Shown here: one piece after another, positions 18,374 through 22,787 of the stretch
Layout of the letters: each line of letters opens with the position of its first letter
How positions within the stretch are numbered: position 1 is the first letter of the stretch
Origin: Snodgrassella alvi
GTDB lineage: Bacteria; Pseudomonadota; Gammaproteobacteria; Burkholderiales; Neisseriaceae
Length of the DNA stretch: 64,000 nt
Direction of reading: 5' to 3'
NCBI RefSeq assembly: GCF_040741455.2
Contig: NZ_CP160328.2
Span: 992,001-1,056,000, forward strand
Program-made: the position numbers and the translations under genes
The notes under the pieces: generated by a model
What the model was told of the DNA's origin: nothing
The model's database searches: none
Seen by the model: only the letters and a program-made list of their open reading frames with translations

Positions 18374-18982
18374 ATGAACCCGCCTACCGTCTACCTTGCT
18401 TCCGGCAGCCCCCGTCGGTATGAAATCCTCACCAATCTTGGCTACCATGTATTGCGGTTGCCCGCAGAGATTGATGAAACGCCCTACCCAGACGAAAACG
18501 CCACTAAATATGTGCAGCGCATGGCACGTATGAAAAACAGTGCAGCACTCAGTACATGGCACCAGACACAGCAACAGCCACCGGAATTTCCGCTGATCAG
18601 CGCCGACACCACCGTTAGCCTGAATAACCTCATTCTGGGCAAACCAGTCAACACCGACGATGCGGCACGCATGCTCAAACTACTTTCAGGCTGCCAGCAT
18701 CAGGTACATACCGCCGTTTCCATCTACTGGCACAACCAAACCCTGCACAGCCTGCAAACCAGCACTGTACACTTTGCACCCTTACAGGATGAACAGATTA
18801 CTGCTTACATTGCCAGCGGTGAACCACTGGACAAAGCCGGAGCCTATGGCATCCAGGGGCTGGGCGGAATGCTGGTTCAGCACATCAGCGGTAGCTTTAC
18901 CGGTATCATGGGCTTACCCGTTTATGAAACCACCCAGCTACTCAACCAATGCGGCTGCACTCCACTTACCAATCCAGATTAA
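18374..18982 (+). CDS. maf: Maf-family nucleoside triphosphate pyrophosphatase (YhdE type)
   Basis: The 202-residue product has the Maf signature YLASGSPRRYEIL, the catalytic/metal block ISADTTVSLNNLILGKP and the C-terminal DKAGAYGIQGLGG and GSFTGIMGLP. These match the YhdE (dTTP/UTP) subgroup rather than YceF. Maf proteins hydrolyse noncanonical or modified NTPs and affect septation. A second, YceF-type Maf is at 61917-62507. The gene follows acuI by 151 bases and precedes a small lipoprotein by 23. Confidence 0.93.
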   Translation: MNPPTVYLASGSPRRYEILTNLGYHVLRLPAEIDETPYPDENATKYVQRMARMKNSAALSTWHQTQQQPPEFPLISADTTVSLNNLILGKPVNTDDAARMLKLLSGCQHQVHTAVSIYWHNQTLHSLQTSTVHFAPLQDEQITAYIASGEPLDKAGAYGIQGLGGMLVQHISGSFTGIMGLPVYETTQLLNQCGCTPLTNPD

Positions 18983-19005
18983 TCCACACAATATCTATAT
19001 TCATC

Positions 19006-19248
19006 ATGAAAATACTGCCTTTACTACCTATTTTCGCCATTACCAGTCTGGCTGCCTGCTCACACCATGAAAATTATCGCAGCGCCAGTGAAGCTGCAGC
19101 CATCACCGCCTCCGATGTCCAAAACGCTCACCTTGAAGCTACCACTACTCTCGACCGGATTGCTGATGAAACTGCCTCAGATAGCATTATCCCATCAACC
19201 TCTGTCAATTCTTCCCGACCAGCCTCTATACCTCAGCAACCAAACTAG
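19006..19248 (+). CDS. Small hypothetical lipoprotein
   Basis: The 80-residue product has a signal peptide MKILPLLPIFAITSLAAC, with lipobox SLAAC and the modified Cys at 18. The mature part is short, polar and Ala/Ser/Thr-rich with no recognisable domain (SASEAAAITASDVQNAHLEA). The frame starts earlier, but ATG 19006 is the only start that gives a signal peptide. It lies 23 bases after maf and may be co-transcribed. Function unknown. Confidence 0.6.
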   Translation: MKILPLLPIFAITSLAACSHHENYRSASEAAAITASDVQNAHLEATTTLDRIADETASDSIIPSTSVNSSRPASIPQQPN

Positions 19249-19456
19249 ACAACTCCCAGCTATACTTACCCACCTAAAATTATCCAAACGCATATTGACT
19301 GCGCAACGATCTCACCCATTCACCTGCAATTAATAACAATGATTCAGAATAATCAAAAAATCACAAAACCGGTTAGCTTACATCAACAGAAGTAATATCC
19401 AACAGCATAACCCACATAAAAACAAATCATTATCAGCAAGCTACAGCTAGATACAA

Positions 19457-19509
19457 TTGACGCAGAAAAATCACAACCCTACCATTCTTGATTAAATAAC
19501 TTAATCAAG
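19457..19509 (+). promoter_or_regulatory. Promoter and palindromic operator touching the umuD start codon
   Basis: A perfect 9-bp inverted repeat, CTTGATTAA (19487-19495) and TTAATCAAG (19501-19509) with five bases between, ends exactly at the ATG at 19510. A possible promoter is TTGACG (19457-19462), 17 bases, TACCAT (19480-19485), which puts the start site inside the palindrome. No Shine-Dalgarno is present in this stretch. The repeat is not the E. coli LexA box (CTGT-N8-ACAG). I read it as a repressor site; it could also act as an mRNA hairpin. Confidence 0.6.
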
Positions 19510-20133
19510 ATGAGCATATTAGTGGTTGATACAACAGCAAAATCCAACACACACGGTGGTAGCAGAACCGGCGCTGGACGCAAAGCCAGAATTGCCGGAC
19601 CAAAAATAGTTAAACGCATCCCCGTCAGCCTAATACCAACAGTAGAGCACCTGATTGATCAGCTGGCTGACAGTCCATTACAACCAGCACAACATCTACC
19701 ACTCGACTGCTGGAAAATAGCCAGCGACCTCAGCCAGCTAAGCATTCCACTGGCCACAGAAACTATTCCTGCCGGCTTCCCCAGCCCGGCAGAACCATAC
19801 ATCAGCGACTATCTGGATTTCAACCAGTACCTGATCAAAAATCAGGCCGCTACCATTGCCGTACGCTGCGGCGGAGACTCCATGCACGATGCCGGCATCA
19901 GTCGTGACGACCTACTAATCATCGACCGCTCCCTCACCCCTAAACACCGCGACATTGTCATGGCCGATTTAGGTAACGAATTCACCATCAAACGCCTGCA
20001 CAGACTCGACAACGGCAACGTCGAACTGCATTCCGAAAACAGCAGCCAATCCTATCCCAACTTCAGCTTTAGCGAAGGCGACACCCTCGCCATCGTCGGC
20101 GTCGTCACCTATGTCATCAAACACGTCCGCTAA
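19510..20133 (+). CDS. umuD: UmuD-like self-cleaving polymerase V subunit with N-terminal extension
   Basis: This S24/LexA-type protein has 207 residues (E. coli UmuD is 139). The C-terminal peptidase domain has Ser124 in CGGDSMHDAG and Lys161 in FTIKRL as the Ser-Lys dyad, and an Ala88-Gly89 cleavage site in TIPAGFPSP. Residues 1-85 are extra: a basic GGSRTGAGRKARIAGPK stretch, then KRIPVSLIPTVEHLIDQL, a strand-helix pattern like ribbon-helix-helix DNA-binding segments. UmuD normally activates UmuC after RecA-stimulated cleavage; the extension suggests a repressor role as well (inference). First gene of a three-gene operon, ten bases before the next. Confidence 0.85.
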   Translation: MSILVVDTTAKSNTHGGSRTGAGRKARIAGPKIVKRIPVSLIPTVEHLIDQLADSPLQPAQHLPLDCWKIASDLSQLSIPLATETIPAGFPSPAEPYISDYLDFNQYLIKNQAATIAVRCGGDSMHDAGISRDDLLIIDRSLTPKHRDIVMADLGNEFTIKRLHRLDNGNVELHSENSSQSYPNFSFSEGDTLAIVGVVTYVIKHVR

Positions 20134-20143
20134 CCCATAAACC

Positions 20144-21535
20144 ATGTACTCAGATCAGCAACTCGCCTTTGTCGACATCGAAACCACCGGCGGCCGCACC
20201 ACCAGCGACCGCATAACCGAAATCGCTGTCGTCTATACTGAAGCCGGCCAACAGCAGCTCTTCCATACCCTGCTTAACCCCGGCACCAGCATTCCACCTT
20301 TTATTCAAGCGCTCACCGGCATCAGCAACCAAATGGTAGAACAGGCACCATACTTTAATAACGAAATTGCCAGCCAGCTTGCCACCATCTTCAAAGATCG
20401 CATCTTCGTTGCCCACAACGTACGCTTTGATTACGGCTTCATTAAAGCCGCCTTCAAACGACTCGGCCACACCTTTAATCCGCAGCAACTGTGTACCGTC
20501 AAACTGTCACGCCTGCTCTATCCCGAACACAAACATCACGGCCTAGACAAAATCATCGCCCGCCACAAAATCGACATGCACAACCGTCACCGTGCCTTTG
20601 CCGATGCCCGTGCCATCTACGACTTCTGGCAGCAACTCAAACACAACTTTTCAGCCGACACCCTGCAACAGGCCTGCAAAACCATCATGCAGCGCCCCAG
20701 TCTGCCCGCCCACCTCCACAGCGACATCCTGAAAAACATCCGCGACGATTACGGCGTATACCTCATATACGGCGACAACGACCTGCCCCTGTATATCGGC
20801 AAAAGCAAACAAGTCAAAACCCGCCTGCTGAGCCACTTCAACCAGGATGTGCACAACAGCAAAGAAATGAGCCTGTCACAACAGGCCAGAAAAATAGACA
20901 TCATCCCCTGTAGCGGCGAACTGGATGCCTTGCTAACCGAATCAGCACAAATCAAACAGCGTCAACCCATCCTTAACCGCCGCCTGCGCCGCCAGAAAGA
21001 CCTGTTTAGCTTCAGGGTCGACACCAATGCGCACGGCTACGACACCTTGAGTATCGTCCCCATGCGCCATGTTCTACTTAACCAGCAGCAGCGCTACTAC
21101 GGCCTGTTTCACAGTAAAAGCGATGCCCAGAAAACCATCAACAGCACCATCAGCAGCACCGACCTGTGCCTGCAAACCCTCGGTATCGAAAAAGGCAGCA
21201 GCAACCGCCCCTGTTTCCGCCACCAGCTACACCAGTGCAGCGGCGCCTGTGTCCACAAAATCAGCGCCGACATGCACAACCTCAAACTGGCATTGGCCTT
21301 ACAAAAAATCAAACTGGCCGCTTGGCCATTTAATCACTACGCCTACGTCAAAGAAAAACAGAAATACCACATCTTCCATCACTGGATTTATCTGGGTAGC
21401 GCCAGCAATAGCGACGAACTGCACACCATCCTCAGCCAACCACAAGGCCAGCTGGATCGCGACGTCTACCAGATCATCCAGCAACACAAACACCGCCTGC
21501 AAACCCTGAACCCCTCCCATGTTTGCCCTGATTGA
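20144..21535 (+). CDS. DnaQ-like exonuclease fused to GIY-YIG endonuclease domain
   Basis: A 463-residue two-nuclease fusion. Residues 1-170 are a DEDDh 3'-5' exonuclease: Asp11 and Glu13 (VDIETTGG), Asp96 (AHNVRFDYGF), His149 and Asp154 (HRAFADARA). Residues 198-285 are a GIY-YIG domain like UvrC/Cho: GVYLIYG with YIGKSKQVKTRLLSH, and Glu266 (LLTESAQIK) and Asn278. A Cys-containing segment follows (PCFRHQLHQCSGACVHK, about 358-375), recalling the UvrC Cys cluster. It is sandwiched in the umuD-umuC operon and overlaps umuC by 17 bases. Role unproven; DNA-damage incision or trimming coupled to translesion synthesis is likely. Confidence 0.85.
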   Translation: MYSDQQLAFVDIETTGGRTTSDRITEIAVVYTEAGQQQLFHTLLNPGTSIPPFIQALTGISNQMVEQAPYFNNEIASQLATIFKDRIFVAHNVRFDYGFIKAAFKRLGHTFNPQQLCTVKLSRLLYPEHKHHGLDKIIARHKIDMHNRHRAFADARAIYDFWQQLKHNFSADTLQQACKTIMQRPSLPAHLHSDILKNIRDDYGVYLIYGDNDLPLYIGKSKQVKTRLLSHFNQDVHNSKEMSLSQQARKIDIIPCSGELDALLTESAQIKQRQPILNRRLRRQKDLFSFRVDTNAHGYDTLSIVPMRHVLLNQQQRYYGLFHSKSDAQKTINSTISSTDLCLQTLGIEKGSSNRPCFRHQLHQCSGACVHKISADMHNLKLALALQKIKLAAWPFNHYAYVKEKQKYHIFHHWIYLGSASNSDELHTILSQPQGQLDRDVYQIIQQHKHRLQTLNPSHVCPD

Positions 21536-22787
21536 CGGCAATAACTTCTATTGCTCCTGCGAAAGAGTTTACCGCCCCGAGCTCAGACAACAGCCCATCA
21601 TCGTACTCAGTAACAACGACGGCTGCGTCATCTCACGTTCCAACGAAGCCAAAGACATAGGCATCAAAATGGGCGTACCCTACTTTCAGATTCAGCATCT
21701 CATACAACAAGGCAAACTAACCGTTTTTTCATCCAACTACGAACTGTATGCCGACCTATCACGGCGCATGATGAGCACCATCGCTTCCCTTGTGCCCGCC
21801 ATCGAAATCTACTCCATCGACGAATGCTTTGCCGACCTGCAAGGACTAAGCAACCTGCACCAGATTGGACACAACATCCGCAACCGCATCCAGCAATGGG
21901 TTGGCATACCCACCTGCGTCGGCATTGCCCCCACCCGAACACTGGCCAAATTCTGTAACCACCTAGCCAAACGCCACCGCCACCATTTCAACGGCGTTGT
22001 CGTCTGGACAGACTGGAGTCACAACATCCAGAAACGTGCCCTTGCCAGCGAACCCGTCACCGAAATCTGGGGTATTGGCCGCCGAATCGGCCACAAACTA
22101 GCCGCACAGGGTATCCACACCGCCCTTGACTTCATCAACGCCCACACTCCCACCCTGCGCAAACAGTTTGGCGTTGTACTCGAACGTACCCAGCGCGAAA
22201 TGCAGGGTATCCCCTGTAGCGAACTTATCATTGAAGAAGCCAACCGCCAGAACATCGTACGCAGCCGCAGCTTCGGCAGAATGGTCACCAGCCTCGAAGG
22301 TCTGCAAGCAGCCATCAGCCACCACATCACCGCTGGCGCCGCCAAACTGCGCGAACAGCATAGTCAGGCACATATCATCGGCGTATTTATCTACACCAAC
22401 CGCTTCCGCCACGACCTGCCCCAATACAATGGCTACCAATTCATCAAACTGCCACATGCCAGCGCCGACAGCATCACCCTGAATCGCATCGCCCAGAATT
22501 TACTGCGCCGCATCTACCGCCCCGGCTACGAATACAAAAAATGCGGCATCGAACTGGGCGGCATCGAACCAACACATCACTTCCAACAACTGGATTTACT
22601 CTGCCCCAGCCAACACAACCACCGCCCCGAACTGATGGTCGCATGGGACAACATCACCAACCACTACGGCCGCAATAGCATCCAACTGGGTAGCGAACTG
22701 CAATCCAACCACTGGCTCATGACCCGTGCCCAACTTAGCCCCTGCTACACCACTCAGATAACTGACTTAGCTGTAATCACCAGTTAA
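21519..22787 (+). CDS. umuC: Y-family DNA polymerase V catalytic subunit UmuC
   Basis: The 422-residue product is a full-length Y-family polymerase. Catalytic acidic residues are Asp6 (FALIDGNNFY) and Asp101/Glu102 (YSIDECFADL). The steric-gate region (NFYCSCERV), helix-hairpin-helix (EIWGIGRRIGHKL) and little-finger domain are present, and a clamp-binding motif QQLDLL lies near residue 357, where UmuC usually has QLNLF. It performs error-prone bypass of lesions with UmuD'. The start overlaps the preceding nuclease gene by 17 bases, implying coupled translation. Confidence 0.95.
   Translation: MFALIDGNNFYCSCERVYRPELRQQPIIVLSNNDGCVISRSNEAKDIGIKMGVPYFQIQHLIQQGKLTVFSSNYELYADLSRRMMSTIASLVPAIEIYSIDECFADLQGLSNLHQIGHNIRNRIQQWVGIPTCVGIAPTRTLAKFCNHLAKRHRHHFNGVVVWTDWSHNIQKRALASEPVTEIWGIGRRIGHKLAAQGIHTALDFINAHTPTLRKQFGVVLERTQREMQGIPCSELIIEEANRQNIVRSRSFGRMVTSLEGLQAAISHHITAGAAKLREQHSQAHIIGVFIYTNRFRHDLPQYNGYQFIKLPHASADSITLNRIAQNLLRRIYRPGYEYKKCGIELGGIEPTHHFQQLDLLCPSQHNHRPELMVAWDNITNHYGRNSIQLGSELQSNHWLMTRAQLSPCYTTQITDLAVITS

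Follow-up and report, generated by a model that had tools for sequence, protein, structure and literature searches.

A candidate UmuDAb-like, LexA-independent damage switch in the umuD operon of Snodgrassella alvi

The umuD operon and the palindrome at its start

We analyzed a 64,000-nucleotide stretch of the Snodgrassella alvi genome (NZ_CP160328.2, positions 992,001 to 1,056,000; hereafter the window), which lies within a single 2.29-Mb contig and carries an operon of umuD, a nuclease gene, and umuC that may be controlled by its own UmuD protein in the manner of UmuDAb of Acinetobacter. The 3 genes lie head to tail on the forward strand in that order, with a 10-bp gap after the first and a 17-bp overlap between the second and third. 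By UmuD, the nearest named relative is Snodgrassella alvi wkB298, with 99% identity.

The umuD gene (19510..20133, +) encodes a protein of 207 residues with an added N-terminal domain (NTD), which we predict to act both as a UmuDAb-like, S24-type self-cleaving repressor and as a subunit of DNA polymerase V (pol V). A Peptidase_S24 match covers residues 84-199 (E 5.5e-25), and NCBIfam assigns the protein to the autoproteolytic subunit of pol V (score 130.9, cut-off 110). The original prediction of an intact Ser124/Lys161 dyad and an Ala88-Gly89 cleavage site was confirmed, with Ser124 (codon 19879-19881), Lys161 (19990-19992), and the predicted self-cleavage bond (19771..19776, +) invariant in 28/28 aligned UmuDs, drawn from Neisseriaceae, Brackiella, and the family of Moraxella and including the window protein. 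The basic segment KRIPVSLIPTVEHLIDQL is likewise present, and the GGSRTGAGRK motif of the NTD (residues 16-25; 19555..19584, +) contains G16, G17, R19, G23, and R24, which together with P38 form an invariant core in all 28 proteins, following the pattern GGxRxGAGRK...VKRIP.

The second gene (20144..21535, +; 463 residues) encodes a DEDD exonuclease fused to a GIY-YIG/Cho-like nuclease, with matches to RNase_T (7.9e-32) and GIY-YIG (5.1e-05), and in NCBIfam it matches PRK07883 and excinuclease Cho best, in each case under the full-length cut-off. The third, umuC (21519..22787, +; 422 residues), encodes a Y-family DNA polymerase with IMS (9.5e-37), IMS_C, and DUF4113 domains, and is UmuC-like along its full length, with a score slightly below the cut-off for PRK03609 UmuC (E 6.4e-121; 404 bits against 431). 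These domain matches agree with the reading of the 2 genes as a dual nuclease and UmuC. The DEDD exonuclease/GIY-YIG fusion was identified in 10/10 Snodgrassella loci with full-length umuD (L076-L084, L092), while 15 of 17 short-umuD loci of Burkholderiales type matched the GIY-YIG part of the window nuclease only, and loci L088, L089, L091, L093, and L096 had no match to it.

A perfect inverted repeat, TCTTGATTAA-ataac-TTAATCAAGA, occupies 19486-19510, with 10/10 bases paired around a 5-base spacer and the final base of its right arm forming the A of the umuD ATG; the palindrome noted on the start codon from the letters alone is therefore real. With the settings used, a scan of 18900-19700 gave no other inverted repeat, and the genome search proposed with the original prediction placed CTTGATTAA-N3to7-TTAATCAAG at the umuD site and nowhere else. 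The candidate operator within it, CTTGATTAAATAACTTAATCAAG (19487..19509), has a 21-bp core of TTGA-TTAA-ATAAC-TTAA-TCAA (19488-19508), and the 23-bp sequence was recovered with up to 3 mismatches in 0/100 shuffles of the window. Directly before the palindrome lies a sigma-70-type promoter-like pair (19457..19485, +), TTGACG (19457-19462) and TACCAT (19480-19485) separated by 17 bp, matching 9/12 consensus bases, a quality reached at 2 sites in 19300-19600 against a shuffle mean of 0.9. Given this arrangement, transcription would start inside the palindrome. Just upstream of the window umuD, no divergent open reading frame (ORF) of at least 60 residues was found.

Operator and N-terminal domain among relatives

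Excerpts from PMC11332147 give TTGA-N4-GTnAC-N4-TCAA as the site bound by Acinetobacter UmuDAb. The window site carries 11 of the 12 fixed bases of this operator, its ATAAC core departing at 1 base, and all 12 are present at umuD in 5 other Neisseriaceae, comprising all 4 genomes of the group g4 and the g5 genome G053, where the site reads TTGA-N4-GTAAC-N4-TCAA. As a measure of chance, none of 19,847 random windows contained at least 11 of the 12 fixed bases within 175 bp, and only 12 out of 20,000 Markov shuffles did. At umuD, 2 Neisseria carry ATGA-N4-GTTAC-N4-TCAA, and the g7 loci L031 and L033 reach 10/12 at best. In a family search for CTTGATT-N9-AATCAAG, matches with 1 mismatch were swamped by chance, and exact ones were used, among the matches listed. 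The site is thus conserved at umuD in several Neisseriaceae genera and is retained where the rest of the upstream region is barely alike; 17 short betaproteobacterial UmuDs had no such site, with a best of 6-9 of 12. A conserved 11/12 site in 3 g4 genomes was dropped from consideration, as it lies inside the coding sequence of a 561-residue protein, by eye ribosomal protein S1.

Within Snodgrassella, umuD was full-length and encoded the NTD motif in 11 of 14 genomes, all 11 of which had TTGA-N13-TCAA at the same place. An alignment of 10 upstream regions of NTD-bearing umuD genes plus L023, leaving out L013 from the window's species, showed the block from the -10 element to the 21-bp core to be invariant in 10 of 11 sequences, with diverging flanks. 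The exception, L023, belongs to genome G080 (L023, L084), whose UmuD retains the protease residues but no longer has the GGARAGAGRK motif; the operator there scores only 9/12, having changed in both arm and core. This joint loss of NTD motif and operator was seen in a single lineage and could therefore be chance. Genome G076 had a broken umuD only, and G078 had no umuD.

The divergent neighbor at the umuD operator is AlkB-like by eye in G005, G006, and G007, and not in G008 (L028, L029, L091, L197). With such a gene in 3 of the 4 g4 genomes, the umuD site there may act on a further repair gene as well, and the alkB-like gene may be a second member of the regulon in g4 Neisseriaceae.

For comparison of the proteins, Moraxellaceae UmuDs were taken from a search of 159 genomes in the family of Moraxella cuniculi. 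Among them, proteins of 203 residues with CTTGAAAATGTAACTTTTTCAAG upstream and a divergent DdrR-like ORF (L133, L136) were taken for Acinetobacter UmuDAb on the grounds of that length and that neighbor, and an Acinetobacter plasmid (L115) carried an NTD-bearing UmuD with CTTGATTTTGTTACAAAATCAAG upstream. An hhalign comparison of 9 Neisseriaceae with 12 Moraxellaceae NTDs aligned 67 columns with a probability of 98.9 (E 3.8e-17). In a tree of the C-terminal domain (114 rows, midpoint root, few columns, bootstrap not fully settled), the window protein, other Neisseriaceae, Brackiella, and Moraxella formed a 100/100 group, which was nested in a 98/100 group holding the UmuDAb-type proteins. Excerpts from PMC3978071 state that other Moraxellaceae lack umuD, which is contradicted by the Moraxella umuD loci found here.

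Pfam identified Peptidase_S24 in 28/28 of the aligned UmuDs and no other family in more than 3/28, the window UmuD having S24 only. In PHROGs, the NTD is covered by families of unknown function, with phrog_21736 matched in 28/28. This phage family of 94 positions matches UmuD residues 14-99 and is possibly a stand-alone UmuD NTD in phages. A search for a solved structural relative of the NTD gave none, with 2 chance-level hits only, and Foldseek matches were mostly to the C-terminal domains of UmuD' and LexA. An AlphaFold2 monomer model built from 28 sequences (mean predicted local distance difference test score, pLDDT, 71; a first model from 8 sequences, with pLDDT 37, was useless) had residues 1-31 mostly below 50 and consisted of a disordered basic arm, an extended VKRIP segment, and 1 helix at residues 39-53, with no second helix. 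The ribbon-helix-helix fold suggested at the outset for residues 1-85 is thus unsupported in this monomer model.

No LexA had been seen in the window, and this absence extended to the genome and to the family: LexA_DNA_bind was over the cut-off in 0/83 family genomes, the own genome included, with weak matches below it in 4/83 and matches in 9/14 controls. The best score in the own genome was 13.4 bits against a cut-off of 23.7.

Class-wide pairing and sites in prophages and viruses

We searched 369 genomes of the class (Gammaproteobacteria in the GTDB sense, beta included), of which 50, the window's own included, gave a match with E no higher than 1e-25. The NTD was widespread, being identified at 25/27 scored loci of a first batch and 5/31 of a second, the loci being the best-scoring ones, which favors NTD-bearing rows. 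When the NTD-bearing umuD genes of the class were compared with the 21-bp operator template, 0/22 reached at least 11 bases, and many instead had a start-codon palindrome of the form TTGA-N5-GTAC-N5-TCAA or TTGA-N5-GTnAC-N5-TCAA. Moraxella-type umuD genes reached 7-8/12 with the first template. A post hoc gain was obtained with the 23-bp template, giving 10 for L085, L086, L119, and L120, 12 for L094, and only 9 for L123. In the Moraxellaceae loci L130, L143, and L094, the 23-bp operator TTGA-N5-GTnAC-N5-TCAA was complete at 12/12, and these 23-bp sites suggest that NTD and operator spacing change together. LexA boxes were also considered at the class-wide NTD-bearing umuD genes and rejected, with 1/22 at 7/8 or better and no excess over shuffles.

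The 22- and 23-bp templates were derived from the discovery loci, so the 18/25 obtained there is not independent, and 3 fixed templates (21, 22, and 23 bp) were scored on loci outside the template-making set. Held-out NTD-bearing UmuDs reached at least 11/12 in 5/5 loci from other families of the class and in 7/8 loci from the Moraxella family, which includes UmuDAb itself, and held-out short UmuDs reached at least 10/12 in 3/26 and 0/17. A cognate palindrome was therefore found at 12/13 NTD-bearing against 3/43 short UmuDs (Fisher p 1e-8), and for the class only at 5/5 against 3/26 (p 3e-4), both uncorrected for relatedness; 3 of the 5 held-out class loci share a genome with a discovery locus (L348 in G566; L361 and L362 in G425). 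By eye, 4 held-out short rows (L373, L376, L377, L378) look LexA-type rather than UmuD, and without them the counts are 12/13 against 3/39 (p 3e-8) and, for the class only, 5/5 against 3/22 (p 7e-4). Rows left unscored numbered 2/29 in the discovery set, 1/32 in the held-out class set, and 12/80 in the viral set described below.

The held-out short umuD genes with a site were confined to genomes that also have an NTD-bearing UmuD (3/8, against 0/18 elsewhere, p 0.02; without the 4 doubtful rows, 3/8 against 0/14, p 0.04), as would be expected of targets in trans, which UmuDAb also has. Among the rows of the C-terminal-domain tree, 56/65 NTD-bearing and 7/46 short UmuDs had the site, with 5 of the 7 sited short rows being Acinetobacter-type phage or plasmid genes, a few of many put in.

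In the 14 Snodgrassella genomes, the pattern TTGA-N4-RTnAC-N4-TCAA was found at 44 distinct places, of which 11 are umuD sites and 33 lie in other locations; the reversed pattern occurred at 3. Many of 20 Snodgrassella stretches inspected (L170-L186 among them) were prophage-like by eye, with sites often paired around small genes or cassettes and some near lysis-like genes, and in 13/20 a terminator-like GCCAGC/GCCGGC hairpin arm directly followed the site. Prophage sites with the GTnAC core were present in 8/11 genomes with an NTD-bearing UmuD and in 0/3 without, and the own genome had 1 prophage-like site, with an ATTAC core, at G000:C1:275541-275561 (L186). In viral contigs, at least 120 stretches matched TTGAWTNTGTWACANAWTCAA; in 45 of the 80 inspected, a UmuD-like gene began no more than 25 bp from the site, and the Snodgrassella-type hairpin was present in 15. 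A site was present at 37/37 scored NTD-bearing and 31/31 short viral UmuDs.

A proposed switch, its rivals, and known systems

We propose, with a probability of roughly 0.8, that the umuD operon works as a damage switch like that of UmuDAb, complete in itself and independent of LexA. Before cleavage, dimers of UmuD would bind the 21-bp palindrome through the NTD, using the basic GGxRxGAGRK arm, the extended VKRIP segment, and the helix at residues 39-53. Since the palindrome runs from just after the -10 element to the start codon, bound UmuD would block transcription of umuD, the nuclease gene, and umuC. RecA filaments formed on damaged DNA would then stimulate UmuD to cut itself at Ala88-Gly89, cleavage would detach the DNA-binding part and relieve repression, and the C-terminal, UmuD'-like part would join UmuC as pol V, with the nuclease gene co-induced along with umuD and umuC. 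For Snodgrassella we infer each of these steps from the observed gene order, protease residues, operator conservation, NTD homology, and lack of a LexA domain over the cut-off; for the relative UmuDAb, published work reports binding, repression, and RecA-dependent self-cleavage as established. The original idea of a UmuDAb-like, self-repressing extended UmuD acting without LexA is supported by comparison, through operator architecture, NTD homology, the C-terminal-domain grouping, the lack of any LexA over the cut-off, and the joint loss of NTD motif and operator, and loses its ribbon-helix-helix component.

Several observations weigh against this proposal. DdrR, the UmuDAb corepressor, was found in 0/83 family genomes with 1 short query and no positive-control genome, so UmuDAb-like control would here run without it. 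The window core is ATAAC rather than GTnAC, and according to excerpts from PMC11332147, core changes in A. baumannii reduce UmuDAb binding more than changes in 1 arm do. Across the tree, 9/65 NTD-bearing UmuDs scored below 10/12 with the 3 templates. After correction for relatedness, 5 supported independent contrasts remained, with a mean of 2.4 in favor, 2.6 showing no difference, and nearly none against, which is not significant; with so few contrasts the test is underpowered, and shared ancestry may account for the association. The -10 element stands beside the operator in the window and in several Neisseriaceae, but as a general rule this was rejected, failing outside Neisseriaceae with 10/29 class-wide, below the 0.49 of random positions. 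On DdrR, excerpts from PMC11332147, PMC8565304, PMC3978071, and PMC9578287 call it and some operator features unique to Acinetobacter, and because it is described as specific to that genus we did not treat it as defining the UmuDAb-type family.

Other readings of the palindrome and of the NTD were weighed against the switch. That the palindrome acts as an RNA hairpin hiding the start codon, rather than as a DNA operator, is highly improbable: if transcribed from upstream, its arms would form a 10-bp stem beside the AUG (-16.5 kcal/mol, z -2.6), but the promoter would place the start within the palindrome, and the stem is missing from a transcript beginning at 19492 (z +0.7). The distance from palindrome to start also varies among relatives, from about -22 to -71, and the central GT(n)AC, which would be the loop, is conserved. 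There is a similarly slight chance that the NTD plays a part in the work of pol V, such as keeping it on DNA, with the palindrome a coincidental neighbor. The spread of NTD-bearing UmuDs through the class would suit such a role, but the association of NTD and operator holds in held-out loci, and excerpts from PMC4807011 report that the UmuDAb NTD is required for repression.

Binding of the palindrome by another repressor is unlikely, though less so than either of these. The genome has 8 S24 matches, of which the 2 inspected beside UmuD look like helix-turn-helix (HTH) regulators by eye, and an HTH/S24 regulator such as the 256-residue L003 protein, which we take to resemble the gonococcal LexA-like regulator NG1427, would be a candidate. 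Against it, the exact site TTGAT-N3-GTNAC-N3-ATCAA was found, among the matches listed, only in genomes with an NTD-bearing UmuD (1 listed site, in G056, lies inside a gene). The L003-like L041 occurs in G024, which has neither an NTD-bearing UmuD nor the exact site. Across families the site goes with the UmuD NTD, and it has degenerated in the lineage without the NTD motif.

Beyond Snodgrassella, we lean slightly toward the view that the NTD-bearing UmuDs of the whole class belong to one family of autorepressors that are cleaved upon damage and whose operators (TTGA-N4-GTnAC-N4-TCAA, TTGA-N5-GTAC-N5-TCAA, and TTGA-N5-GTnAC-N5-TCAA) co-evolve with them. Such a family would provide a private SOS circuit for mutagenic-polymerase operons in many Gammaproteobacteria, with UmuDAb as the first known member and the short umuD genes of the same genomes and of phages as targets in trans. 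In excerpts from PMC11332147, PMC8565304, PMC3978071, and PMC9578287, UmuDAb-type control is confined to Acinetobacter or Moraxellaceae, and in the open-access literature we found no report of a UmuDAb-type repressor in Neisseriaceae or of a class-wide pairing of NTD and operator. If true, the recurring pairing, together with UmuDAb-like control in a symbiont of the bee gut, would turn an Acinetobacter peculiarity into a more general rule, damage control of the UmuDAb form may be commoner than thought, and in Neisseriaceae the operator would offer a candidate means of finding genes induced by damage. Because the mistakes of pol V contribute to mutation and to evolving resistance, the switch that governs it is of interest.

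Of the systems already described, Acinetobacter UmuDAb (A. baylyi ADP1, A. baumannii) has a homologous NTD and an operator of the same TTGA-N4-GTnAC-N4-TCAA architecture, carries the S24 residues for self-cleavage, controls umuDC, and likewise occurs without LexA. Snodgrassella differs in that no DdrR was found, the core is ATAAC in the window's genus, the operator ends on the start codon, and the operon adds a DEDD exonuclease/GIY-YIG nuclease. That nuclease resembles the DEDD exonuclease-Cho fusions of the PRK07883 group in the order and type of its 2 nuclease domains, but it is shorter than the models, scores far under the equivalog cut-offs (best 243.7 against 495), and sits inside a umuDC operon. 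In E. coli, UmuD has the S24 domain at its C-terminus as well (fold match 1ay9, 43% identity) and is encoded in an operon with umuC, but it is not known to carry an NTD and is repressed by LexA. The logic of an S24 self-cleaving repressor is that of LexA itself, from which the window UmuD differs in having no LexA_DNA_bind match and a score of 51.9 against the NCBIfam lexA cut-off of 110.95; the best upstream match to CTGT-N8-ACAG was 5/8, in the near-identical L076. HdiR of Streptococcaceae, the LexA-like regulators of Bacteroidetes, and FddR of Francisella are further cases of S24 proteins coming to control a damage regulon, but in excerpts of PMC8565304 and PMC13148647 they are described as phage-repressor-like or as a separate S24 family and not as UmuD-derived.

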